From the NCBI GenBank assembly GCA_903642265.1, contig CAHJWN010000022.1:1-50973 (forward strand): a stretch of 50,973 bases of DNA. Reading direction: 5' to 3'. The notes below the pieces were generated by a model. The model saw only the letters and a list, made by a program, of their open reading frames with translations. It made no database searches and was not told the DNA's origin. Source of the stretch: Acidobacteriaceae bacterium (GTDB lineage: Bacteria; Acidobacteriota; Terriglobia; Terriglobales; Acidobacteriaceae). The translations under genes were made by a program, and so were the position numbers. Shown one piece after another: positions 23,591-38,054 of this stretch; the stretch's first letter is position 1; every line of letters begins with the position of its first letter.

Positions 23591-24031
23591 CTAACGCCTT
23601 GATTTCATTTCATCTTCAAATAACGGAACAAGTTTCGCCGCAGGCTTTTTCGAGCTGAAGTCGAGCTGCTTCTGTTCGTGACCTTTGGGGTGCTGCTCAC
23701 GCCATAGTTCCAGGAGCAGCGGCGGCATGGCCGAGAGCACCGCCTTGGTGCGGTGAATCTTGGCATGACAACCAGGACAGAGCGAAAGCATCAGGTTCAG
23801 GACCGACTTGCCGGGTACCCGGTGATGCACGATGATGGAGCGTTTATCGCGACCGGAAGCATCGCAAACCCGGCAACGGTAGCCGTCACGCTCCAGAACC
23901 GCTTCGCGCAGACCACCGAAATACTCCTCATCCTGCCGTTTCAGCGTGTAGCAGGTTGAACACAGACCCAAGGCCAGGATCTTCGGATTCCCACACGGAC
24001 AATGCATGACCCTTTGAACGAGGCGTGTCAC
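23591..24031 (-). CDS. HNH endonuclease
   Basis: 146 residues. An N-terminal zinc-finger-like part has 'CPCGNPKILALGLCSTCY' (C-x-C...C-x2-C). The HNH core reads 'ERDGYRCRVCDASG', 'IIVHHRVPGKSVLN' and 'LSLCPGCHAKIH', giving the two CxxC zinc pairs and catalytic His. The GTG start overlaps the recombinase stop (GTGA), so the two are translated together. Such short HNH proteins nick or cut DNA. Its link to a serine recombinase suggests a mobile-element or plasmid-maintenance function, which is inference. Confidence 0.85.
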   Translation of the reverse strand: MTRLVQRVMHCPCGNPKILALGLCSTCYTLKRQDEEYFGGLREAVLERDGYRCRVCDASGRDKRSIIVHHRVPGKSVLNLMLSLCPGCHAKIHRTKAVLSAMPPLLLELWREQHPKGHEQKQLDFSSKKPAAKLVPLFEDEMKSRR

Positions 24032-24651
24032 TTCCCCGCCCTTTCAGCTTTTGCCTTTGCCCGTCCGATGTAGCGGTAAACCGTCGTCCGATCTAGCTTG
24101 AACTCGCGCGCCAGAGCGGCTTTGCTTTCTCCCTCGCCCAGGCGACGGGTCAGCTCAGCCGCCCGATCCGGTGTCAGCAGACGCTTGCGGCCTTTGTAGA
24201 CCCCATCCCGCTTTGCAAGCTCGATTCCCTCTCGCTGGCGTTCCCGGCTCCACGCCACTTCGAACTCCGCGAACGAGCCCATCATATTAAGGAGCAGCGT
24301 TGCCATCGGCGAGTCGTCGCCGGTCAACGTCAGGTTCTCTTTAATGAAGCGGACTCCGATCTTGCGCGAAGTCAGCTCCCCGACCGTCTTTCTGAGGTCC
24401 ACCAGATTGCGACCCAGGCGGTCCATCGAGTGACAAACAACCGTATCGCCTTCCCGGACGAACTTCATCAGGGCTTCGAGCTGCGGGCGTTGGATGTTCT
24501 TGCCCGAGGCCTTATCCAGGAACACGCGGTCCAGTGCCATGCCTTCAAGCTGGCGACTCACGTTTTGTTCAAAACTGCTCACTCTCACGTACCCCACCGT
24601 CTGTCCCTTCGGTGGGTGTTGTGTGGCATTAGGCTTTACTACTTTCGGCAT
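24028..24651 (-). CDS. Serine recombinase (resolvase/invertase family)
   Basis: About 207 residues if started at ATG 24651 ('MPKVVKPN'); a longer frame reaches 24702, and no start has a strong ribosome binding site. The catalytic Ser is in 'GYVRVSSFEQN', followed by 'DKASGKNIQRPQLEALMKFV', 'VCHSMDRLGRNLVDL' and 'GSFAEFEVAWSRERQREGI'. A C-terminal helix-turn-helix is present ('GESKAALAREFKLDRTTVYR'). All resolvase landmarks are intact, so it should perform site-specific recombination, possibly multimer resolution on a plasmid. It is co-translated with the HNH gene. Confidence 0.93.
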   Translation of the reverse strand: MPKVVKPNATQHPPKGQTVGYVRVSSFEQNVSRQLEGMALDRVFLDKASGKNIQRPQLEALMKFVREGDTVVCHSMDRLGRNLVDLRKTVGELTSRKIGVRFIKENLTLTGDDSPMATLLLNMMGSFAEFEVAWSRERQREGIELAKRDGVYKGRKRLLTPDRAAELTRRLGEGESKAALAREFKLDRTTVYRYIGRAKAKAERAGK

Positions 24652-24813
24652 TGCCTGTAGCATAAACCAGAAATCAACCCTATGCCACGCTCTTTCGGGC
24701 AATCATGCAACGTGGCGATACGGTATACCCTGGTGGCACGGAACAAGCCAGCCGGCGATCGTCACAAACGGTATCTTTGCAGCTTCGTTAGAAGCTTTCT
24801 GGTGATTCCAAGG

Positions 24814-25413
24814 CTAGCTGAATTGGTAGACCCTATCCGGAATACCACCCTCTCGCAGCTCATGGATTGGCAAACGGAACACGCCGCGGATCTGTTCCAC
24901 TTTGCGCACGGCAATCTGAACGTGAGTCTTCTTCCAAAAGCCGGCCTTTGGGTACAGCTCTTCCCCTTCCGGGAAGAGGGCGCGTACCGTGTCGTACTCA
25001 ACACCGATCTCTGCAAGGTTTTCGTGGAGATGCTGAATGACGGCACGATCCAGAAAGCGAAGTGCCAGATCACCAGGTTTACGATCCTTGATGTCTCTGT
25101 TTTCCAGCAGCGCTTCGCCGCGTAGCGTTTGCAGGTCTTTATAGCTCGCGTAGGCCGCTTCCACAGCTTGGGTGCCGCGCTGGGTGGTCAGATCTAAACA
25201 ATTCCCCAGTTCGATTGCCGCCCCGACAAGGCTTTCCTCCCCAGTGCGGAACTCCTCAGCCCACTGGTAAGCACGAACCGCATCCCACTCCCAGAAGTAA
25301 GCGCCGTTTCCAAGCCAATCCCATCGCTGATTGCTCAAGCGAAACAACGAACCGCCCAGAAGCTCGTGGGCGGTTGCTTTACTACAGCCGTGATATGCCA
25401 GAACTATCGACAA
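24814..25413 (-). CDS. Putative ADP-ribosyltransferase-like protein, candidate toxin
   Basis: 199 residues with TTG start at 25413, overlapping the upstream 57-codon gene by 10 bp. The N-terminal pattern 'AYHGCSKATAHELLGG' followed by 'QRWDWLGNGAYFWEWDAVRA' resembles small bacterial proteins with an ART-type (H-Y-E) fold: His in YHG, Tyr in the AYF strand and an acidic residue later. I recognise the sequence pattern from uncharacterised families but not a named one. The overlap with a short upstream gene with a strong ribosome binding site suggests a toxin-antitoxin arrangement. Both the fold and the toxin role are inferred. Confidence 0.6.
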   Translation of the reverse strand: MSIVLAYHGCSKATAHELLGGSLFRLSNQRWDWLGNGAYFWEWDAVRAYQWAEEFRTGEESLVGAAIELGNCLDLTTQRGTQAVEAAYASYKDLQTLRGEALLENRDIKDRKPGDLALRFLDRAVIQHLHENLAEIGVEYDTVRALFPEGEELYPKAGFWKKTHVQIAVRKVEQIRGVFRLPIHELREGGIPDRVYQFS

Positions 25414-25929: not shown

Positions 25930-26586
25930 CTAGTCCCGATCCGCACAGGAAACACCCTCTAGAGCCAACACATTCGTGACGAAGTGCCGCGCAGCATTGC
26001 GCGCTGCCAACATCATTACCAAGTATTCCACTGCGAAGATGAGCAGAAGGGAGTCCGTTTTCAGACCATGCGGCGTAAATCCCACGAATCCAATGATCCC
26101 GACAAAAAAGACGATCACCGAAAAAGCAGTCATCTCGCGAAAGCGAAGGTAGGCGCCGTGGGCGTCCTCTACTGAGGCCTGCGATTCGTGTCCTTTGTAG
26201 ATGCGGTACCAGAGAGCTGTTTGAGCAGCAGCTTCCACAGGAAGCTGCCCATACTTTCGCATGATCCTCTCCAAGTCAATGCGCGGATCACTCTTCGCCA
26301 GCCGAGAGAAAGCTTCACTCGAAGGCAGACAGTTCTGCAGTTTCCAGAACACCAGAGACTCTTTGAGCTGCTTCGAGCAAGCCCAACCGATTGCACTGGT
26401 GAGCAAGGTGATGGCGGCTGGCACCGCAAACAGCTTGCCCACGAACGACCAATCACCGTGTATGAATGAAGTCACCAGATCAGCAACACGCTGCCGGCCC
26501 ACGATAATCAAGCCAAGTGCAATGGCGTTCATGGCAATGAATGTAATGATGTACGGCTGATTCTTCTGCTTAAGTGTGCGTCCCAT
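25930..26586 (-). CDS. Four-helix membrane protein linked to the WYL regulator
   Basis: 218 residues. Hydrophobic segments lie at about 13-33, 50-70, 154-172 and 180-198, with a soluble loop of about 80 residues between the second and third. No family is recognised. Its ATG at 26586 comes 1 nt after the stop of the WYL-domain gene, so the two are one transcription unit. Given the divergent ubiquitin-like operon, it could be a membrane effector of the same system, but this is a guess from context. Confidence 0.65.
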   Translation of the reverse strand: MGRTLKQKNQPYIITFIAMNAIALGLIIVGRQRVADLVTSFIHGDWSFVGKLFAVPAAITLLTSAIGWACSKQLKESLVFWKLQNCLPSSEAFSRLAKSDPRIDLERIMRKYGQLPVEAAAQTALWYRIYKGHESQASVEDAHGAYLRFREMTAFSVIVFFVGIIGFVGFTPHGLKTDSLLLIFAVEYLVMMLAARNAARHFVTNVLALEGVSCADRD

Positions 26587-26587
26587 C

Positions 26588-27460
26588 TCACTCCACGAAG
26601 CCGTGCTTCTTATAAAAAGTCGACAGTTCCACTCGATTGGCTAACGCGAGACCTTTATGGACATTCCGAGGCTCGTTGAGCAATCCAAGGTGCTCCAGGT
26701 TGTAGAACAGGAGCGCCTCCTTAACCCGCAGGATCAACCTGCCGTTCTCCATACAGAAGTCTTCCTCAACAATCTTTCGTTGCGCCTCTGACAATTCAGG
26801 ATGGGGTACGATCACCGCTTCGATAATGTTGTACCAGTCTGCATCCGAGCCCGGACCGATGGGAGATGATCCTTGCAGAACGGCCTCTCTCACACGGCCA
26901 AGGACGAAATCTCGGAATTCGTTACGTTCGTGGCAGTAGGCCCGAACGTGCCATCTGCTTCCGTTGAATCCAAGTGCATGCGGTGTGATGTTCCGGCACG
27001 ACGTTCCAGAACCGCTAATGGAGTCGTAAAGAATACGGACACTTTTCTGATCTTTTGTCGCCGCTAAGATTGAACGCAGGATGTCGTGCCCAACCGGGCG
27101 AGCAGGTTCCGCAACCAGACTCGTGTCAGGTCTCCAGCCTAAGAACGACGAGTTCTCTGCCTCCACACCACTCGTGACGGCCCACAAGCGAGTCAAGTAG
27201 TCGTCTGTAGAAGCCTTGAGCAGCACAGGCGCAAAGGTCTTGCTGGTGATGTATGCCCTTTCAAGCACATCGTAGAACGCGTTCTCAGGTGCCAGCTCGC
27301 GATATCTTGCAAAATCAACGGACGCCTGTGGGACCGAGATTCCGAAGAAATCAACCAGATCGCTGCGATTGACCCTTCCCTCCCATTGCAAGCGGAACTC
27401 GATGAACTCCAGCCTTCTTTCCTGCCCCCATCGTGCTGGCGCTCTCTCTTTTTCCGGCAA
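26588..27460 (-). CDS. WYL-domain transcriptional regulator (BrxR/CapW-like)
   Basis: 290 residues with TTG start at 27460, preceded by AGAGG. N-terminal winged helix-turn-helix (about residues 15-65, 'GRVNRSDLVDFFGISVPQAS'), then a WYL-type domain (about 130-200) with 'SVRILYDSISG', 'ITPHALGFNGSRWHVRAYCH' and 'FRDFVLGRV', and a C-terminal extension. Order and sequence resemble the BrxR/CapW regulators that repress BREX, CBASS and other defence loci, where the WYL domain is thought to sense a ligand. It is divergent from the MBL/E2-E1/JAB operon, and a perfect palindrome sits in the 124-bp spacer. Repression of both directions is the natural inference. Confidence 0.85.
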   Translation of the reverse strand: MPEKERAPARWGQERRLEFIEFRLQWEGRVNRSDLVDFFGISVPQASVDFARYRELAPENAFYDVLERAYITSKTFAPVLLKASTDDYLTRLWAVTSGVEAENSSFLGWRPDTSLVAEPARPVGHDILRSILAATKDQKSVRILYDSISGSGTSCRNITPHALGFNGSRWHVRAYCHERNEFRDFVLGRVREAVLQGSSPIGPGSDADWYNIIEAVIVPHPELSEAQRKIVEEDFCMENGRLILRVKEALLFYNLEHLGLLNEPRNVHKGLALANRVELSTFYKKHGFVE

Positions 27461-27481: not shown

Positions 27482-27500
27482 CCATCTAGAAACTAGATGG
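27482..27500. promoter_or_regulatory. Perfect palindrome, likely operator of the WYL regulator
   Basis: CCATCTAG-AAA-CTAGATGG: 8-bp arms with a 3-bp spacer, between the divergent WYL and metallo-beta-lactamase genes. It lies 22 bp from the WYL start, and a TATAGT possible -10 box (27503-27508) for the other direction begins 2 bp after it. BrxR-type WYL dimers bind inverted repeats in exactly this kind of position. Binding here is predicted, not shown. Confidence 0.65.
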
Positions 27501-27584: not shown

Positions 27585-28817
27585 ATGGCAACCACGATTA
27601 CATTCTTTCCGGTCGGGAATGGGGGCATGACACTTGTGACCCTCGACGGTGGCCGGACCATCTTGATTGACTGCAACATTACCGGCGCGGCTGACGATCC
27701 TAAAGACAGCACCCGTGACGTCGCCAAAGATCTCCGCGAGCGACTGAAGAGGGACAAGGCTGGGCGGCCCTTCGTAGACGTTTTCCTCTTGACCCATCCG
27801 GATCAGGACCACTGCCGGGGAATCCAGAACCACTTCTACTTCGGCAAGCCAGCAGATTACCCCGATGACAAGAAAGCCGACAACGAAAAGCACATCGTCA
27901 TCCAGGAGATGTGGTCATCGCCCATCGTGTTTCGCCGTGCCAGCGTTGGCCACCCCTTGTGCAAAGACGCCAAGGCATTCAACTCGGAGGCTAAACGCCG
28001 GGTGGAGGTCGCTCGCTCCAAGAAGTGCACCGGTGTCGCGGAAGGCGATCGTATCCAGATCCTCGGGGAAGATGAAGACGGAAAGACGGATGACATCCTC
28101 GCGATCGTCGTGAAAGTTGACCAGGACATCACCAAGGTAAACGGCGAGGCCAGCAAGATCTTCAAGGCACGGCTACTCGCACCTCTGCCGAAATCGGACG
28201 ACGATGACGAGGAGGAAAACCTCCGGAAGAACCACTCCAGCGTCATCCTCAATATGGAGCTTGCCGATACCTCAGCCCGTAAAACAGTGAAGAATTACCT
28301 AAACGGCGGAGACGCCGAGGTTCTGATCTGGGAGAAGCTGTGGGCAAAGCACAAAAAGGCGACGGCCGTTCTCGAATACGACTTGCTGGAGACACCGCAC
28401 CACTGTTCCTGGCACACACTCTCTTGGGACAGCCGCTCTGAGCTGGGCGACAAGGCGAAGGTCTCCCCCGATGCCAAGAAAGCTCTTTCGCAGATCCGTG
28501 AGGGAGGACGTATCGTTTCGGGCAGCGCCCCCATCAAGGACAACGATTGCGACCCCCCGTCATACGCCGCGAAGAAAGAGTATGAGGGAATCGCGACCGG
28601 GGTCAAAGGCAAGTTCTTCTGCACCGGCGAGAACCCGACCGAGAAGAGTCCTTCTCCCTTGGAATTCACGGTAACCGACCAGAAACTCAAGGAGTCTGTC
28701 CGCGGAGCTGTTGTAGATGCACCCTATGTCATGACAAAATCCATGGTCGATGAGGCCGCGCGCAAAGCTGCGGAGTCTGAGGCCGTCTCTAAGGGCGGAG
28801 ATACCAAGTATGCCTAA
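27585..28817 (+). CDS. Metallo-beta-lactamase-fold protein of an E2-E1-JAB operon
   Basis: 410 residues, start ATG 27585 with GGAGA 8-9 nt upstream. The metal-binding motif is 'THPDQDH' (H71, D73, D75, H76), the ComEC/Rec2-like form of the metallo-beta-lactamase signature. Later His-rich stretches are 'KNHSSVILNME' and 'ETPHHCSWHT'. A run of acidic residues 'SDDDDEEEN' lies mid-protein. It is probably a hydrolase acting on nucleic acid or a nucleotide. Its stop overlaps the E2-E1 start by 8 bp, so these are translationally coupled. Combination of MBL, E2-E1 and JAB has been noted in comparative genomics of prokaryotic ubiquitin-like systems (recalled, not checked). Confidence 0.85.
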   Translation: MATTITFFPVGNGGMTLVTLDGGRTILIDCNITGAADDPKDSTRDVAKDLRERLKRDKAGRPFVDVFLLTHPDQDHCRGIQNHFYFGKPADYPDDKKADNEKHIVIQEMWSSPIVFRRASVGHPLCKDAKAFNSEAKRRVEVARSKKCTGVAEGDRIQILGEDEDGKTDDILAIVVKVDQDITKVNGEASKIFKARLLAPLPKSDDDDEEENLRKNHSSVILNMELADTSARKTVKNYLNGGDAEVLIWEKLWAKHKKATAVLEYDLLETPHHCSWHTLSWDSRSELGDKAKVSPDAKKALSQIREGGRIVSGSAPIKDNDCDPPSYAAKKEYEGIATGVKGKFFCTGENPTEKSPSPLEFTVTDQKLKESVRGAVVDAPYVMTKSMVDEAARKAAESEAVSKGGDTKYA

Positions 28818-30684
28818 CGGCATCGCTCAGCGGATGCAAGAGGAAGGCGTCGCGAAAGCTGACGCCTTTCTTGCAGCAAACTGGCATGCCCGACGCCTCT
28901 CGGAAGCCGAGCTAAAGCAACACGCCGTCCGTGAACCACTGGCCGGCTGGGAAGCCTACGTTCAGCCGGAACAGGCCATCCACCGGCTACACATCCTCAT
29001 CGATCATCAGTTCCCGTACTCTCTTCCGAAGTTCCTCCTTGCGGACAATCCGAGCTTCCCCTCATGGCCGCACGTCGAGCCTGACGGCAATCTCTGTTTG
29101 AGTCGAACCAATCGAGTGCTTCGACCGGACCACCCAGCGGGAGTGCTGGATGTGCTTTTGGCCCAGGCAGTTGATCTTCTTCGGAAAGGTGAGCTTGGCC
29201 TGAATCTCGAAGACTTCAAGTCAGAGTTTTACTCGTATTGGAACTTCAGTCTCGATGACCCAAAGGAAGCGGTCCTCAGTCTCCTCGACACCCAAGCGAA
29301 AAGTAGATTTGTCAGAATCTGGCCGGGCGAGACACGGAGCGTTGTAGGTGAATCCGAAGCGCAGGTGTCGACCTGGCAGCGCAACCGTTGGGGTGAGCAG
29401 CCACAGTTCGATAAGACGATACCCGCATGTCTCCTATGGCTCCCAGAAGTGCTCCTCCCCACTCAGTATCCCCGGTCTGCCCACGATCTCTTCCGTCTCG
29501 CTCAATCAATTCCAAACGGCAAGGACCTCCTGGAGCGTTTCAGCCGACTAAAGCTGTCCACCTACTACTTTGTTCTCGGTGCGCTTGGAAAAAATGGTCC
29601 CTGCTTCGCAGCTGTTTGTACACGTCCGCCTCAGACTTCCGAGATGAGGACATTTCGCAAACATGGGACGTTGAACGGCTTCAGGAAAGGCAAGATGCCG
29701 CAATCGCTCGTAGCCGCGCGGCTTTTCTCTTCTGTGGCTCCAGCACAGCGCCTCAAGCTTGACCGGGCTGATGCAGGCTGGATACATGGGCGAGGGCACG
29801 ACCCGCATCAGCCCGTACTCGCTCAGAAGCGCGTGATCATTATTGGCTGCGGCTCGGTAGGCGCTCCCATCGCAGGGCAACTTACAAAAGCCGGCGTGGG
29901 CCAGATCGATATCGTTGACCCCGAAGGTCTGGCGTATGCAAACATCGGGCGCCATCCACTCGGTGCTGAAGCCGTGGGCGTCAAGAAGGCGTTATCCATG
30001 GCGACAAGGCTACAAAGCGGCCACCCTCACGCGACGATTCGCGGCTTCGGTCTTTCGTACGAAGAATTCGTGTTCAAGCATCTCGATACTCTCCAGAGTG
30101 CAGACCTCATCATCAGCGCCACTGGTAGTTGGACAGCGGAACGCCTTCTCAATACGCAACGGATTAGCGGTGAACTCCAAGCACCGACGATCTTTACGTG
30201 GACCGAGGCCCACGCCTGCGCGGGTCACGCCTTGCTCCTCACTGCGCCACTACCCTGTCTGCAGTGCGGTATGACCCTTGAAGGCGCGCCGAAGACCACA
30301 GTCACGACCTGGGCCGATCCCCGCGCGGGAGAGCGAACAGAACCGGCATGCGGGGCCGTGTTTCAGCCTTATGGGATTGTTGAACTCCAAGGCACGATTA
30401 CTCTAGCATCGGGCTTGGCCATCGAGGCCTTGATAGGCCAAGCTACCGGGTCTACACACCGCGTGTGGCAGGTGGCAGCTGCGTTTCTTCAACAGGCCGG
30501 CGGAGCGTGGCATCCAGATTGGATCCAGGGCCGCCCCGAGCGCGCGGCTGGCGGCTTGCAAACCGAAATCATTTGGGAGAAAGACGATCTGTGTCCTGCG
30601 TGCTCCTCAAGAAATACTGGCGTAGTCTCCGTTACCGGATCGGAGACTCAGATCAACAGCTCTCCATCACACCTGCAGTCATGA
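28810..30684 (+). CDS. E2-E1 fusion protein (ubiquitin-like conjugation, ThiF family)
   Basis: 624 residues from ATG 28810 (GGAGAT 8 nt before), overlapping the MBL gene. The N-terminal E2-like domain has its predicted catalytic Cys at C96 in 'HVEPDGNLCLSRTNR', the typical prokaryotic E2 pattern. A central unknown segment (about 160-330) follows. The E1/ThiF adenylation domain starts near 340 with 'VIIIGCGSVGAPIAGQL' and 'DPEGLAYANIGRH' (nucleotide Asp and Arg finger). Zinc pairs are C483/C486 and C595/C598; C514 in 'EPACGAV' is a candidate thioester Cys. This is the architecture of Cap2 in type II CBASS, which conjugates a protein C-terminus to targets. No CD-NTase or ubiquitin-like gene is visible nearby. 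Confidence 0.9.
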   Translation: MPNGIAQRMQEEGVAKADAFLAANWHARRLSEAELKQHAVREPLAGWEAYVQPEQAIHRLHILIDHQFPYSLPKFLLADNPSFPSWPHVEPDGNLCLSRTNRVLRPDHPAGVLDVLLAQAVDLLRKGELGLNLEDFKSEFYSYWNFSLDDPKEAVLSLLDTQAKSRFVRIWPGETRSVVGESEAQVSTWQRNRWGEQPQFDKTIPACLLWLPEVLLPTQYPRSAHDLFRLAQSIPNGKDLLERFSRLKLSTYYFVLGALGKNGPCFAAVCTRPPQTSEMRTFRKHGTLNGFRKGKMPQSLVAARLFSSVAPAQRLKLDRADAGWIHGRGHDPHQPVLAQKRVIIIGCGSVGAPIAGQLTKAGVGQIDIVDPEGLAYANIGRHPLGAEAVGVKKALSMATRLQSGHPHATIRGFGLSYEEFVFKHLDTLQSADLIISATGSWTAERLLNTQRISGELQAPTIFTWTEAHACAGHALLLTAPLPCLQCGMTLEGAPKTTVTTWADPRAGERTEPACGAVFQPYGIVELQGTITLASGLAIEALIGQATGSTHRVWQVAAAFLQQAGGAWHPDWIQGRPERAAGGLQTEIIWEKDDLCPACSSRNTGVVSVTGSETQINSSPSHLQS

Positions 30685-31091
30685 ACCACATCGCTGAGCA
30701 GCAGCAAAATGCCCCGCACGCAGCCGAAGCTGGCGGTCAACTCTTTGCACGTATCACTGAATCCTGCATCACCGTTCAACGAGCTACTGGACCCAGATCC
30801 ACGGACCGCCGTACCCGGTATGGCTACATCCCTGATCGAAAGAAGGAACAACAAGAGATCGACGAGATGTTCCAAGCGGGGTTGCTTTTCATTGGAGACT
30901 GGCACACACACCCTGAGAAGATCCCGACGCCATCCAGGTCAGACCTCCAGAGCATCAAGAACATATACAAGGGATCGCGACACCATCTTCCCGCGTTTCT
31001 GCTACTGATTGCCGGAACAGAAAGCTTCCCTGCTGGCCTACATCTCAGCTTCCACTCGGCAAGTGCTGAGGTAAGACTCTCCAAAATCTAG
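30591..31091 (+). CDS. JAB/MPN-family metallopeptidase (Cap3-like deconjugase)
   Basis: 166 residues if started at GTG 30591, which gives a complete beta-strand 'LSITPAVMNHIAEQQQ' and has GGGAGAAAG upstream; ATG 30681 would give 136 residues with a 4-bp overlap. The JAMM zinc site is intact: E46 ('AEAGGQLF'), H105 and H107 ('WHTHPEKIPTPSRSD'), S115 and D118. Such enzymes cleave isopeptide or C-terminal fusions in ubiquitin-like systems. It overlaps the end of the E2-E1 gene by about 94 bp. Its presence implies a conjugate to be removed, even though the modifier gene is not recognised. Confidence 0.88.
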   Translation: MSCVLLKKYWRSLRYRIGDSDQQLSITPAVMNHIAEQQQNAPHAAEAGGQLFARITESCITVQRATGPRSTDRRTRYGYIPDRKKEQQEIDEMFQAGLLFIGDWHTHPEKIPTPSRSDLQSIKNIYKGSRHHLPAFLLLIAGTESFPAGLHLSFHSASAEVRLSKI

Positions 31092-31242: not shown

Positions 31243-31901
31243 TCAGCAACGCTCCAGGGGCATACAGGAGGCCCCGCGCAGCTCGTAGACCGTGCGACCA
31301 CCCGTCGCCGTCATCAGCGCCCGAGCGTCGTCCGGCTCGAGCGCGGCCAGGTCCGCGGCCGTCTGGATTCCAAGCTTCGCGATCTTGACGGCCGAGGCTC
31401 CACCGATTCCCCAGGCCTCATCCACCGGCACCGTGGGCAGCAGCTCCGCACGCACCCGCCCGTCGCGAAGGTCACAGACGCCCGCGTACTGTGGCCGTTT
31501 CTTGGCAATGAAGTTGGCCACCTTCGCCAGCGTCTTCGTCGGCGCGATTCCAACACCGGTCGGGATGCCCACCCAGCGGTGAACCCGCTCCCGCATTGCT
31601 CGCGCCAGCGGCTCGACCTCCCTGCTGTTGAACTCGCCCAGGTTCAAGAAGCTCTCGTCGATGGAGTACGTCTCCACCGTCGGCACCATGGAGTGCAGGG
31701 GGTCACCCATGCGGATTCCAAGCGCCTTTGCTTCTCAGTCATCTGGAATCGCACTGCCATAGTTGGTAGGCGCGGTATGACATCATCACCAACGACAACC
31801 TGCATTGTCTTGGGGGTCACCTCCGACAACTGGCCTTGTCGTGGGCGAAACGAAGTGGTTTCCGCGCGAGTTACCAGCAGGTAGGCCAATAACGCCCACA
31901 T
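31243..31901 (-). pseudogene. umuC-like Y-family DNA polymerase, truncated and frameshifted
   Basis: The best part (31243-31710) reads 'MGDPLHSMVPTVETYSIDES', 'IPTGVGIAPTKTLAKVANFI' and 'DEAWGIGGASAVKIAKLGIQ', typical of UmuC/DinB palm and helix-hairpin-helix regions. Upstream the frame reads 'EAKALGIRMGDP' after an in-frame TGA, and an ATG at 31901 gives 'MWALLAY', resembling the UmuC start 'MWALLD'. Several frame changes lie between. The C-terminus stops after 'ELRGASCMPLE', so some 250 residues are missing. It is inactive. Confidence 0.8.
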
Positions 31902-34909: not shown

Positions 34910-35680
34910 ATGAGCGGACCGATTATCACCGGATACATCGATGAAAGCTACACCGGCAACCAGAAAAAAGGTCTTTTCACACTCTGCTGCGTTTTTGTGC
35001 GCCAGGAGCAGCTCGCACCGCTGGAGCTTTCTTGGCAAAACGTAATCGACAAGAAGAATCTCCAGCTCCAGAAGGAAGGCCGCCCGTCGATACAACGATT
35101 CCACGCGACGGAGTTGAATTGCTTGTCAAAGCAATACGAGGGCTGGACGGATGACGAGCGACTTCAGTTCGTCAAAGCTTTGTACCGGACCCTTCGATAT
35201 AGCCTGACAAGCCATGAGGCATACACCCTGGACCTCAGCGATATCCTTGCGATTTGGCCGGAGTCCGAGCACCCGATAGCGTTCGGCTATCAGCTTCTCA
35301 CCCAGAACTTCATGCTCGATATGGGTGAGATCATTCATCAGGAACAAATGACGGAACGCATTGACCTGGTCGTGGAGCGGGGAGATGGATCAGCAACTAC
35401 GCAAGCCACATTCCAGGCGATGTTGCGAGACGAGACATTCAAATACGCAAACACGTTCCGTTCCATCCGAGAGGGTAGCTGGGATCGTGACAGGATGCTT
35501 CAGATAGCAGACCTATTCGCCTATGAGGCTTTCAAAGATGCGAAGCGCCGTAAGCAGGGTAAGACTGACCCACGGTTGAGCATGCAGGCACTCCTCTCGA
35601 TGGACTCCGTAGGCATTAAGACGCAAGAAGTCTCAAGGGAATGGCTCTTGGAGCTGAAACGCACCAAAGACCAACAATAA
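34910..35680 (+). CDS. DUF3800-family protein
   Basis: 256 residues. The N-terminus 'IITGYIDESYTGN' is the YIDESG-type motif of DUF3800, a family with a predicted RNase H-like fold whose acidic residues (here D and E of 'YIDES') would bind metal. Near the C-terminus 'MLQIADLFAYEAFKDAK' is the other conserved block. Members are often found in phage-defence and mobile regions. It is first in a three-gene unit: the next gene begins 18 bp after its stop and the HEPN/Toprim gene follows. Confidence 0.8.
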   Translation: MSGPIITGYIDESYTGNQKKGLFTLCCVFVRQEQLAPLELSWQNVIDKKNLQLQKEGRPSIQRFHATELNCLSKQYEGWTDDERLQFVKALYRTLRYSLTSHEAYTLDLSDILAIWPESEHPIAFGYQLLTQNFMLDMGEIIHQEQMTERIDLVVERGDGSATTQATFQAMLRDETFKYANTFRSIREGSWDRDRMLQIADLFAYEAFKDAKRRKQGKTDPRLSMQALLSMDSVGIKTQEVSREWLLELKRTKDQQ

Positions 35681-35698
35681 GGTAAGAGCAAGAACGCT

Positions 35699-36661
35699 AT
35701 GGAATCTACACTCGTACAGGTTTCCGTTGAAGCGATTCGACCCGCCCCTGCAGTTGGTCCTATGGGCGGAGCCATCTTTGACGTGACTCTTAGAGGAATC
35801 TCCGCCAACCCCGATGCGTGCTTCACTGAAATCGTCCGGGTCGGTTCGAAAAGCTATGAGAACATCCAGCTACTTCAGAAACGTGGATCAGTTGTGGTTG
35901 AACTGCTTGGGTTGTGGCAGCATGACCACCACACAAGTGGTGGTTGGATCAGCTATGTGTTCCGGAAGGTAACCGAGCAGATCGAGGCTTTAGACATGAC
36001 GAGTCAGGACGACACACCATACGGGTATGACGCAGAGTTGGCGCAAAGCATCCTAATCGCCCTCAACAAGATCTACCCGGCAACCATGCCCGGCCCCATG
36101 GACCTGAAACATGCCCTCTCCAACGTTCCGAGTGACACTTCCTTATTAACGGCCCTGGATGCCCTTTTGGGAGACGGGCTAATCACCGGGAGACCACTCC
36201 GAGATCACACACGCGCTGGAAACCGTCTCGCAATCTTGGCGAATATTCAGATCACCCGCGAAGGTCGGAAGCACCTCGCTCCACCGGGAGAGAAAGTTCC
36301 CCAACAGCCCTCGCTAGTTGTACATGGTGACCACATCACAAACAGCGGCACGGTCGGCTCTATCGGTCGCAATTCAACCGGGGCGGTCGCGACCAGCGGC
36401 CCGAAGCACGATGAGGCACTTGCAGCCTTAAATGAGCTGTTAGCGGCGCTAAAGCCGCTGCAGCCGCAGGACCAGTTGCTGGACAGGGCACACCGCGAAC
36501 TGATGAAGGTACACGACGAGCTTTCAGACGAGCCGGAACCAGATCAGAACAATATCATCAAGTGGCTCAGCCGAAGCAAGCAGGCAATCGCGACCGCATC
36601 ATTGGGCTACGAGGTGGTGGACGCAGCTCACAAGCTCTTCTCACTGTTCGGGTTGGGATGA
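35699..36661 (+). CDS. Hypothetical protein with a probable winged helix, middle gene of a defence-like operon
   Basis: 320 residues. The first about 100 residues are beta-rich. Residues about 115-195 read like a winged helix ('SLLTALDALLGDGLITGRPL' followed by 'IQITREGRKHLAPP'). A Gly/Asn-rich motif 'VVHGDHITNSGTVGSIGRNS' (about 203-222) then leads into a C-terminal helical domain with heptad-like Leu spacing ('LAALNELLAALKPLQPQDQL'). I do not recognise the full family. Similar 'GDxIxNSGxxGxIG' stretches occur as linkers before effector domains, from memory. Tight spacing with DUF3800 and HEPN/Toprim genes suggests a shared function. Confidence 0.6.
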   Translation: MESTLVQVSVEAIRPAPAVGPMGGAIFDVTLRGISANPDACFTEIVRVGSKSYENIQLLQKRGSVVVELLGLWQHDHHTSGGWISYVFRKVTEQIEALDMTSQDDTPYGYDAELAQSILIALNKIYPATMPGPMDLKHALSNVPSDTSLLTALDALLGDGLITGRPLRDHTRAGNRLAILANIQITREGRKHLAPPGEKVPQQPSLVVHGDHITNSGTVGSIGRNSTGAVATSGPKHDEALAALNELLAALKPLQPQDQLLDRAHRELMKVHDELSDEPEPDQNNIIKWLSRSKQAIATASLGYEVVDAAHKLFSLFGLG

Positions 36662-36734
36662 ATCATCACTCAAACAACTACAGGTAGCGTTGTCACAGGC
36701 TGCTCCATTCACAAGAGGTTCACCTGGAGGCATA

Positions 36735-38054
36735 TTGGGAACGTACATAACGCTGGAGGTGGGAGGGGTGGAGGTCACTTCCAGCAAGAACCATCTCGGG
36801 ATGGATCATGGTTCACTCTTCCAGCGTTCTGATCGCAGACCTATACACAGCGACCAGATTGACTACGAATATTACGAGCAAGAAAAAGAAGACCCCACGC
36901 CAATGGAGATGGTGTTTATACGCCCTTTGGGAGACGTTGTGCCTCGGCTAGAAATGCTTGGCTTCACTCTTGATCGTGTGCGTCGTGAATATGAGAGGGT
37001 GGCTGACGAAACGCGTAAGATCATGTCTTCGGTTGACATATACAACGCTGATGAAATCGCTGCGTTGATGAGCTTTGATGAATTTCGCGATTTTGTGAAC
37101 GACTACCCCATCGAGAGTCTTAGTGCGGCCTATGTGGAAGTTTCAGACAAGGAGGCCATGCAAGCTGTCCGCCAACGGTTTTCTAGATCTGAGATCAATC
37201 GGATACCGCGACATTCGGCATACGACGTGGCCTACTCCGAACGCAGCTTCTTTGCAGGTGCGATAGACATTCTGCACCCTTACTCAGTGATGAGACTCCT
37301 GGGAGACATAGACGCTAACGCGATAGTTTCAGTCGTTTGGCACTACGGTCCGCTTCTCGAAGGCGGGTACGTGAATGCAAGCGACTTCACCCCGGAGGCA
37401 CGTAGGGCTGAAGCTTTCCTCATTGCGACTGAAGGCAGTTCCGACATACACATCCTGAAACGCGCTCTCCTACTTTTGCGCCCAGATGTTGCGGACTTCT
37501 TCCGTTTTATCGACGTACAAGAGGGCCATCCGTTCCCAGGAACCGGAAACCTCGTAAGGTTTGCAGAGGGTCTCGCCAAAATTGATATACAGAATCAGGT
37601 TCTATTCTTATTTGACAATGACGCGGAGGGTCTAGACGCCTACCAACGCATGTCGAAGCTAATCTTGCCGCTTAATATGCGCGGAGCCATGCTGCCGGAT
37701 GTGGAGACTTTTAGGAGATTTCCAGCCCAGGGTCCAGACGGCACTCAGTTAGTGGACATTAACGGTCGTGCAGCCGCTATCGAATGCTACCTAGATCTGG
37801 AGCTTGAGTCCTACCCCCCTGCAAAGGTACGTTGGACGAACTACAAGAAGGACTTGGGCGTCTATCAGGGTGCCTTGGACTACAAAGAGTCCTACACCAA
37901 AGCCTTTCTGGATCAGACACCAGAGTCGATCAACACAGGTTCGTATGATGTAAGCAAACTTCAGGCCGTGCTTAGCCTAATGATCGCTGAGTGTACCGCC
38001 ATAGCCGTCGAGCAGGCACAACAGAACATGAGCTATTTAGACAAGGAATGGTAG
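36735..38054 (+). CDS. HEPN/Toprim-associated protein, candidate defence effector
   Basis: 439 residues from TTG 36735, chosen because GGAGG lies 4 nt before it and homologues begin 'MGTYxxLEVxG' exactly there; the frame is open back to 36690. The N-terminal part ('GTYITLEVGGVEVTSSKNHL') is the HEPN/Toprim-associated N-terminal domain. A Toprim-like nuclease domain follows, with 'IATEGSSDIHIL' (E233) and 'FLFDNDAEGLDAYQ' (D294, D296) as the acidic metal-binding motifs. Such proteins are predicted nucleases in conflict systems. Last of the three-gene operon. Confidence 0.8.
   Translation: MGTYITLEVGGVEVTSSKNHLGMDHGSLFQRSDRRPIHSDQIDYEYYEQEKEDPTPMEMVFIRPLGDVVPRLEMLGFTLDRVRREYERVADETRKIMSSVDIYNADEIAALMSFDEFRDFVNDYPIESLSAAYVEVSDKEAMQAVRQRFSRSEINRIPRHSAYDVAYSERSFFAGAIDILHPYSVMRLLGDIDANAIVSVVWHYGPLLEGGYVNASDFTPEARRAEAFLIATEGSSDIHILKRALLLLRPDVADFFRFIDVQEGHPFPGTGNLVRFAEGLAKIDIQNQVLFLFDNDAEGLDAYQRMSKLILPLNMRGAMLPDVETFRRFPAQGPDGTQLVDINGRAAAIECYLDLELESYPPAKVRWTNYKKDLGVYQGALDYKESYTKAFLDQTPESINTGSYDVSKLQAVLSLMIAECTAIAVEQAQQNMSYLDKEW

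Follow-up and report, generated by a model that had tools for sequence, protein, structure and literature searches.

A metallo-beta-lactamase with a conserved C-terminal tail as candidate modifier of a CBASS-type E2-E1/JAB module in an Acidobacteriaceae bacterium

The window, a 50,973-nucleotide stretch of DNA from an Acidobacteriaceae bacterium (GenBank assembly GCA_903642265.1, contig CAHJWN010000022.1), carries an operon of three genes with successive overlaps, verified by analysis of open reading frames (ORFs). In order, the genes encode a metallo-beta-lactamase (MBL), an E2-E1 fusion and a JAB peptidase resembling Cap2 and Cap3 of the cyclic oligonucleotide-based antiphage signalling system (CBASS). 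The host is a metagenome-assembled genome (MAG; G000, contig 22) of 4.64 Mb in 196 contigs, with a completeness of 94.7 and a contamination of 5.7. A first-pass annotation had described the operon as a ubiquitin-like conjugation system with no visible modifier, possibly conjugating the C-terminus of one of its own proteins. The three overlapping genes were borne out by the ORFs and by family matches. A candidate modifier became visible once MBL C-termini were compared, and, as judged from sequence, the MBL itself probably fills the place of the missing modifier. The operon comprises the following features.

27585..28817, plus strand: MBL-fold protein, 410 residues, a 6A-MBL enzyme, ComEC-like (NF058524; fold match of an AlphaFold 2 (AF2) model)
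28701..28814, plus strand: C-terminal tail of the MBL, residues 373-410, with the last residues VSKGGDTKYA at 28785-28814; proposed conjugation tag
28810..30684, plus strand: E2-E1 fusion of the CBASS Cap2 kind, 624 residues (Prok-E2_B, ThiF, PADLOC E1-E2)
30600..31091, plus strand: JAB/JAMM isopeptidase of the Cap3 kind (Prok-JAB, PADLOC JAB, JAMM alignment)

The probable start of the E2-E1 gene is the ATG at 28810, inside ATGCCTAA, where it overlaps the MBL stop codon, and the JAB gene probably starts at the GTG at 30600, giving an overlap of 85 nucleotides with the end of E2-E1. The possibility that E2-E1 and JAB are a single gene broken in the window was rejected; the two also occupy separate frames in the related loci L003 and L118 and in the gamma split loci. 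In the nearest relative, a Terriglobus MAG (L002:11151-13526), most of E2-E1 lies in the JAB frame and its last part in another, a change within E1 that is either real or an assembly error. Seven window proteins were scanned against Pfam and NCBIfam, ten against PADLOC and ten more against Pfam, with the remaining window ORFs outside the scan. No match to a CD-NTase (cGAS/DncV-like nucleotidyltransferase) or to a ubiquitin-like family was identified among the proteins scanned, small ORFs and folds not having been searched; the earlier observation that neither gene is recognised thus holds among these neighbours.

The MBL matched NF058524, the NCBIfam model for the enzyme of the 'anti-phage 6A-MBL system', with 422.3 bits against a cut-off of 220. 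Since an MBL beside E2-E1-JAB was also described in 2006 (Iyer 2006, row 6a, PMC1779556), the class is already known, and the earlier proposal of a distinct, unrecognised class was not upheld. The AF2 model revealed an ordered core (mean predicted local distance difference test (pLDDT) score 89.1, predicted template modelling score 0.87), with block means falling to 78-86 around residues 161-170 and 201-220. Its top fold match in the PDB was the ComEC beta-lactamase-like domain 9ic4 (E 9.6e-13, TM-score 0.71 by target), and a phosphodiesterase (7dck) was also among the matches. Residues H71, D75, H76, D243, H272 and H273 were invariant in 55/55 aligned MBLs, and D73 nearly so. The title of a paper in the reference list of PMC12799240 calls the ComEC domain a metal-dependent nuclease; the modelled fold makes it likely that the window MBL cuts DNA. 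The family extends beyond chance, because 3268 of 7993 scored candidates were homologous at E<=1e-5. The MBL of L002 is 95% identical to that of the window. A 'CobQ-like' protein was considered as an additional tail-bearing fold and dropped: the annotated cobalamin biosynthesis CobQ on an Aeromonas salmonicida plasmid (L117:3635-4819) is a 6A-type MBL adjoining E2-E1 and JAB.

Analysis of the MBL C-termini revealed a conserved end. Among the best 120 of the 3268 homologues, which include the window's own and are referred to here as window-family MBLs, all 120 ended in G-x-x-[K/R]-Y-A. By position, A(-1), Y(-2) and G(-6) were present in 120/120 and V(-10) in 119/120, with several other tail positions varying freely. 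In the AF2 model the tail is predicted to be largely disordered, with pLDDT below 50 at residues 374-387 and 399-410, and residues 385-400 form a helix modelled with low confidence. Such a combination of conserved end and flexible tail is a trait of E1/E2 substrates. By its sequence and model, the MBL appears to be an operon protein with a conserved C-terminal G or A on a flexible tail, the way in which type II CBASS works; this supports the earlier hunch that an own protein is conjugated, with the MBL C-terminus as the best candidate.

We also examined a distant set of 90 6A loci, made up of the best 80 of 87 genome-scan loci, six Acidobacteriota loci (297 genomes, over the cut-off), four plasmid loci and the window. 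Of their MBLs, 85 were treated as intact, leaving aside four that are broken or cut (L036, L054, L066, L068) and the window near copy in L002. These analyses revealed a terminal G or A in 56/85 intact MBLs (G 42, A 14); 27 of the remaining 29 carried RAG, HG or YG followed by 1-6 extra residues, as in ubiquitin precursors. Elsewhere, G or A ends were found in 12/83 partner E2-E1s and in 174/816 background ORFs of at least 250 codons. The control set consisted of homologues of the Avs1a-like MBL of L169, of which 120 were listed, and here a G or A end was identified in 13/120 and the motif in 0/120; the window MBL differs from these homologues in having the C-terminal tag. True Avs1a was rejected as a control (2/274 genomes matched, none over the cut-off), and the homologues of one such MBL were used instead.

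The E2-E1 and JAB proteins matched Prok-E2_B (1.9e-16), ThiF (3.5e-21) and Prok-JAB (1.5e-11) in Pfam, and the E1-E2 (603 bits) and JAB (191 bits) profiles of PADLOC. The predicted catalytic C96 and adenylation motifs were confirmed by alignment: E2 C96, E1 C514, G346/G348/G351, D370, R381 and K393 were invariant in 28/28 CBASS-type and 70/70 long (fused-type) E2-E1 rows. The JAMM peptidase was likewise intact, with E43, H102, H104 and D115 aligned with split-locus JABs; numbered from GTG 30600, the H105/H107 given earlier are three off. Cap2 was the top PDB sequence match of E2-E1. Both proteins failed NF058523, the NCBIfam cap2_3 model of the 6A-MBL system (60.8 and 42.8 bits, cut-off 320), a model passed by the fused relatives L012 and L123 with 555 and 553 bits; JAB also fell below the Cap3 model NF050170 (62.5 bits, cut-off 200). 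Among 297 Acidobacteriota genomes, four E2-E1s matched the PADLOC E1-E2 profile with more than 480 bits, the next match having 153; two of the four adjoin an MBL (G000, G225) and two a CD-NTase (G238, G220; CD-NTase and patatin called by eye).

Phylogenetic analysis grouped the window E2-E1 with CBASS Cap2s and separated it from the fused E2-E1-JABs (Shimodaira-Hasegawa-like approximate likelihood ratio test, SH-aLRT, 100 on both sides; IQ-TREE run on 41 of 104 E2-E1 rows). No E2-E1 was found in 6/110 loci (L045, L054, L066, L068, L077, L148). The window MBL core, however, sits among fused-lineage 6A MBLs in a tree that leaves out L036, L054, L066, L068, L055 and L023. It is 62.5% identical to L004 and 61.3% to L005, whereas the window E2-E1 is 17.8% and 15.6% identical to theirs and 36.4% identical to the CBASS Cap2 of L112; the histories of module and MBL therefore differ. 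By sequence, the nearest relatives of the window module are of the CBASS Cap2/Cap3 kind, a kinship that the first-pass annotation had missed although its description of the three genes stood; it had also passed over the two minus-strand genes upstream, for the membrane protein and the WYL regulator. In the Bryobacterales loci L004 and L008, whose MBL cores share 61-63% identity with the window's and whose MBL tails end ..NKPAGFA, the split E2-E1 is of a third type and lies on a very long branch.

The window MBL ends in AVSKGGDTKYA, and ends of the same type were found on CD-NTases beside the closest Cap2s: PVEKRGGGRFG (L146), VVIKGGNSDYA (L147), PVEKQGGGRYA (L158), AVDKRGGGRYG (L114), AVKLDGDERYA (L115) and AVSSAGGGRHA (L112, L161, L162, L168), together with PVEKREGGRYA followed by GSALP in L116. 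A class III cyclase encoded directly before E2-E1 in Agrobacterium (L164) ends in AVHSSGGTRHA (tail ENAVHSSGGTRHA); this end type is shared by 14 of its 120 listed homologues and not by most. Agrobacterium plasmids (L164:1257-4656 and L176, P0242-P0361) encode such a cyclase, about 39% identical to annotated PycC, directly before E2-E1. At L173:3501-6363 and L175:3492-6804, the gene after a Pycsar-like cyclase encodes an 'E2 domain-containing protein' and no E1, a Pycsar effector or TIR gene comes next, and the cyclase ends are of another kind (..RAHASK, ..VEVGGE).

A profile was built from 11 tails of this type, ten from CD-NTases and one from the cyclase, with MBLs excluded, and 10 bits or more was taken as recognition; the profile omits CD-NTases with other ends (L149, L159, L166, L167), whose Cap2s branch outside the window's group. 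This non-MBL profile recognised 120/120 listed window-family MBLs, 3/3 window-clade loci and 9/10 gamma split MBLs. Outside the split lineages it recognised 0/71 other 6A MBLs and 0/120 control MBLs; of these 71, 69 have E2-E1-JAB fused in one frame, with a match to the JAB profile in 69/69, and for the other two (L045, L077) no partner was found. Among background ORFs there were 13/4641 matches, all 13 being the CD-NTases and cyclase themselves. Five CD-NTase queries matched in 1/90 MBL loci (L078), although the same queries also failed to detect the CD-NTases known in L115, L159 and L167.

Across 81 MBL loci, tail dissimilarity tracked E2-E1 distance when MBL-core distance was held fixed (partial r 0.644, 0/2000 permutations as high). 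In contrast, it did not track MBL-core distance when E2-E1 was held fixed (partial r -0.062, 1863/2000 permutations as high). The loci in this Mantel test are related, and the permutation count is not a clean probability; L002, L077 and L122 were dropped in addition to the loci left out of the MBL-core tree. Because the tail follows E2-E1 and not the MBL core, it appears to be part of the conjugation module and not of the carrier enzyme. The anatomy of the operon, the conserved C-terminus, its covariation with E2-E1 and its likeness to CD-NTase and cyclase tails are direct observations. The best reading of these sequence data is that the E2-E1 module and its C-terminal tag move jointly between unrelated immune enzymes, here handling a ComEC-like nuclease.

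Immediately upstream of the MBL gene lie two minus-strand genes separated by one base, and an inverted repeat.

25930..26586, minus strand: predicted membrane protein, 218 residues, four hydrophobic segments
26588..27460, minus strand: WYL-domain regulator, divergent from the MBL gene (Pfam WYL, 3.8e-14)
27482..27500, unstranded: perfect inverted repeat CCATCTAG-AAA-CTAGATGG, located in the promoter region between the divergent genes; candidate operator for the WYL regulator

Two membrane-protein families adjoin 42/85 MBL/E2-E1 units, 32 with the window's family and 10 with a second; the window's family was found in 0/19 CBASS or cyclase loci. Its AF2 model is all-helical (pLDDT 83.9) and had no PDB fold match at E<=0.001; no Pfam or NCBIfam match over cut-off was identified for the family, nor a PADLOC match for the window copy. 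A WYL homologue lies divergently upstream of the MBL in 27/84 loci, and the window protein is CapW/BrxR-like by inference. Between the WYL gene and the MBL gene, CCATCTAGAAACTAGATGG is identical in L002 and L118. The pattern CATCTA-N5-TAGATG with at most two mismatches was present in 5/27 WYL loci (three being the window and its relatives L002 and L118) against 0.06 expected from shuffles, and in 0/58 non-WYL loci; at four mismatches the half-site test gave 17/27 WYL loci against 10.0 in shuffles. A general palindrome with arms of at least 7 was discarded as a shared feature, the signal across WYL loci being weak (5/27, against 2.2 in shuffles). On sequence, the palindrome is a candidate WYL operator.

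Taken together, we consider it likely that the operon is a hybrid 6A-MBL anti-phage system in which the MBL is its own ubiquitin-like modifier, conjugated via A410 by the Cap2-kind E2-E1. We infer conjugation, activation, target, nuclease action, regulation and phage defence along the following lines. In the resting state a WYL repressor at the palindrome would keep the operon low, and DNA damage would probably raise expression through this repressor. E1 would then adenylate A410, the C-terminal alanine of the flexible tail, and the MBL would be carried by C514 and then by C96 of E2, which would link it by an isopeptide bond to target lysines. JAB would remove conjugated MBL and, in relatives with a few extra tail residues, would first trim the tail. 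Conjugation may prime or place the nuclease, as for cGAS in CBASS, perhaps at the membrane with the linked membrane protein, which could serve as target, anchor or sensor; on infection the MBL nuclease would cut DNA. The target and the trigger are the least certain of these steps.

Several results weigh against this interpretation. Positions -15 and -22, for example, are also conserved in the 120 close MBL homologues listed, so the end is not the sole constrained part of the MBL, and two of the 85 intact MBLs, L077 (..NGDDVI) and L122 (..FGRRHD), break the end rule as set. The tail profile recognises neither L117 of the gamma split group, which scores 1.2 bits, nor the split loci of Bryobacterales (L004, L008; 0/2), and the latter two, in rows counted apart, have V at the C514 column. 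The 120 control MBLs were compared by sequence, without regard to genomic context, and penultimate CD-NTase residues are reported to vary (Jenson, PMC10097602). The membrane-protein and WYL genes are absent at many loci. Finally, an approximately unbiased (AU) test was compatible with a tree that has all MBL-linked E2-E1s to one side of a branch (p 0.115), a result that fixes neither the direction nor the number of exchanges between MBL and module, and several proven MBL-CBASS swaps are not claimed.

Three other explanations were weighed. The membrane protein might be the killing effector, with the MBL as a regulator (a phosphodiesterase or signal-removing nuclease) controlled by conjugation. 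Any same-strand ORF of 110-350 residues with at least 2 hydrophobic segments (simple hydropathy) was found beside 57/85 units compared with 12/218 control ORFs, and the MBL fold includes phosphodiesterases such as 7dck. However, the best match by fold is to the ComEC domain, Tuck and colleagues describe the defence MBLs in their study as cutting DNA (PMC12799240), and 43/85 units have no recognised member of either membrane family; we regard this explanation as improbable. Slightly less probable still is that the tail is a switch rather than a tag, which JAB clips or on which E2-E1 merely docks, freeing the nuclease and conjugating no target. JAB is a peptidase, related MBL nucleases are reported to be opened proteolytically (PMC12799240), and 27/85 MBLs carry the short removable extension past RAG, HG or YG. 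Yet the 56 MBLs without an extension, including that of the window, offer nothing to clip, the E2 cysteine and E1 adenylation residues kept in 98/98 rows would be needless for docking or clipping alone, and the tail covaries with E2-E1. That the modifier is a ubiquitin-like protein encoded elsewhere in the genome, with the MBL tail serving, for example, E2-E1 assembly, is very hard to credit: Bil and Bub do use such proteins with E1, E2 and JAB (PMC11354881, PMC13373217), and small window ORFs were not searched for the fold, but CBASS, the nearest kin of E2-E1, is described as operating without one (PMC10097602), and the MBL tail is like the tails of Cap2 substrates, proven or likely.

The operon resembles several known systems and differs from each of them. 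With the 6A-MBL system (NF058524/NF058523; Iyer row 6a) it has in common the MBL family adjoining E2, E1 and JAB domains, but its CBASS-kind E2-E1 and JAB are encoded separately, and its tail ends in KYA, not HG, AG or YG. All domains of the 2006 operon are kept in order, except that JAB is a separate overlapping gene and not part of one polypeptide. Anti-phage activity is ascribed to the 6A-MBL system by its NCBIfam name and is presumed for the window operon. Type II CBASS provides the nearest E2-E1/JAB kin, as separate overlapping genes with a like tail on the protein encoded upstream; in contrast, no CD-NTase or CBASS effector was found adjoining the window operon, the tail is on the MBL, and JAB is below the Cap3 cut-off. 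In CBASS, the CD-NTase C-terminal G or A is reported to be conserved solely alongside full-length Cap2 and Cap3, and conjugation through it was demonstrated (Jenson, PMC10097602), and a Bacillus CBASS cyclase is described as joined via A331 to PspA (PMC11153139).

MBL pro-nucleases (Hachiman, AVAST, Lamassu, DRT, Canu) have the ComEC-like MBL in common with the window as the likely DNA-cutting effector of defence operons. Those of Hachiman, AVAST and Canu are reported to be opened by trypsin- or caspase-like proteases (Tuck 2025, PMC12799240), whereas the window partner is E2-E1/JAB. In the gated form of such pro-nucleases, the part that the partner protease cuts is a set of disordered loops covering the active site. 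On the minus strand of L170 (1468-3426), an MBL without C-terminal tail directly adjoins a caspase-like protein (by eye), in a Canu-like arrangement. Bil and Bub share E1, E2 and JAB parts in defence operons, and WYL (CapW) regulators occur in Bub too, CapW or CapH plus CapP being reported in 219/544 Bub operons (PMC13373217); unlike them, the window has no ubiquitin-like protein among the proteins scanned by family models. The Pycsar-like class III cyclase of L164 shares the position of its gene directly before E2-E1 and the tail type, but its fold is that of a cyclase, not an MBL, and no JAB motif was found in L164. In open-licence PMC full texts, a scope outside which most subscription papers lie, no report of MBL conjugation was found and the term '6A-MBL' did not occur; the publication behind the NCBIfam name was not found, and MBL conjugation may therefore already be published. 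Viral contigs gave three stretches matching a pattern, none a relative, and 50,697 phage records gave five with E1 matches, all partial.

Further along the window, a piece of a Y-family polymerase (IMS; 155 residues, apparently cut) lies on the minus strand right after the operon (31243-31710). A possible defence or mobile island at 24028-24702, 24814-25413 and 34910-38054 encodes a resolvase, a weakly PD-T4-9_A-like protein, a DUF3800 protein and a protein with a HEPN/Toprim N-terminal domain.

These findings offer a concrete answer to the question of what the MBL-adjoining E2-E1-JAB proteins, known since 2006, act on. Conjugation through a bare C-terminus, as in CD-NTases, would then also apply to a nuclease-like MBL and, judging by sequence, to a class III cyclase. 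Tail and E2-E1 are, on this reading, inherited as one unit. A bolder idea, which we think unlikely to hold in full, is that the modifier need not be a fold at all: a portable flexible C-terminal tag would travel with E2-E1 among MBL nuclease, CD-NTase and class III cyclase, and E2-E1 would here weld a ComEC-like nuclease to a membrane protein, achieving by conjugation the state that ComEC reaches by gene fusion, with the DNA-cutting domain at the site of phage DNA entry. Should MBL conjugation prove to be published already, what would stay new is the hybrid with a Cap2-type module, the way in which tail and module covary, the case of the cyclase and the partner membrane protein. If conjugation of the MBL is true, the substrates of bacterial E2-E1s would be predictable from tail sequence alone and tails would be exchangeable between immune enzymes.

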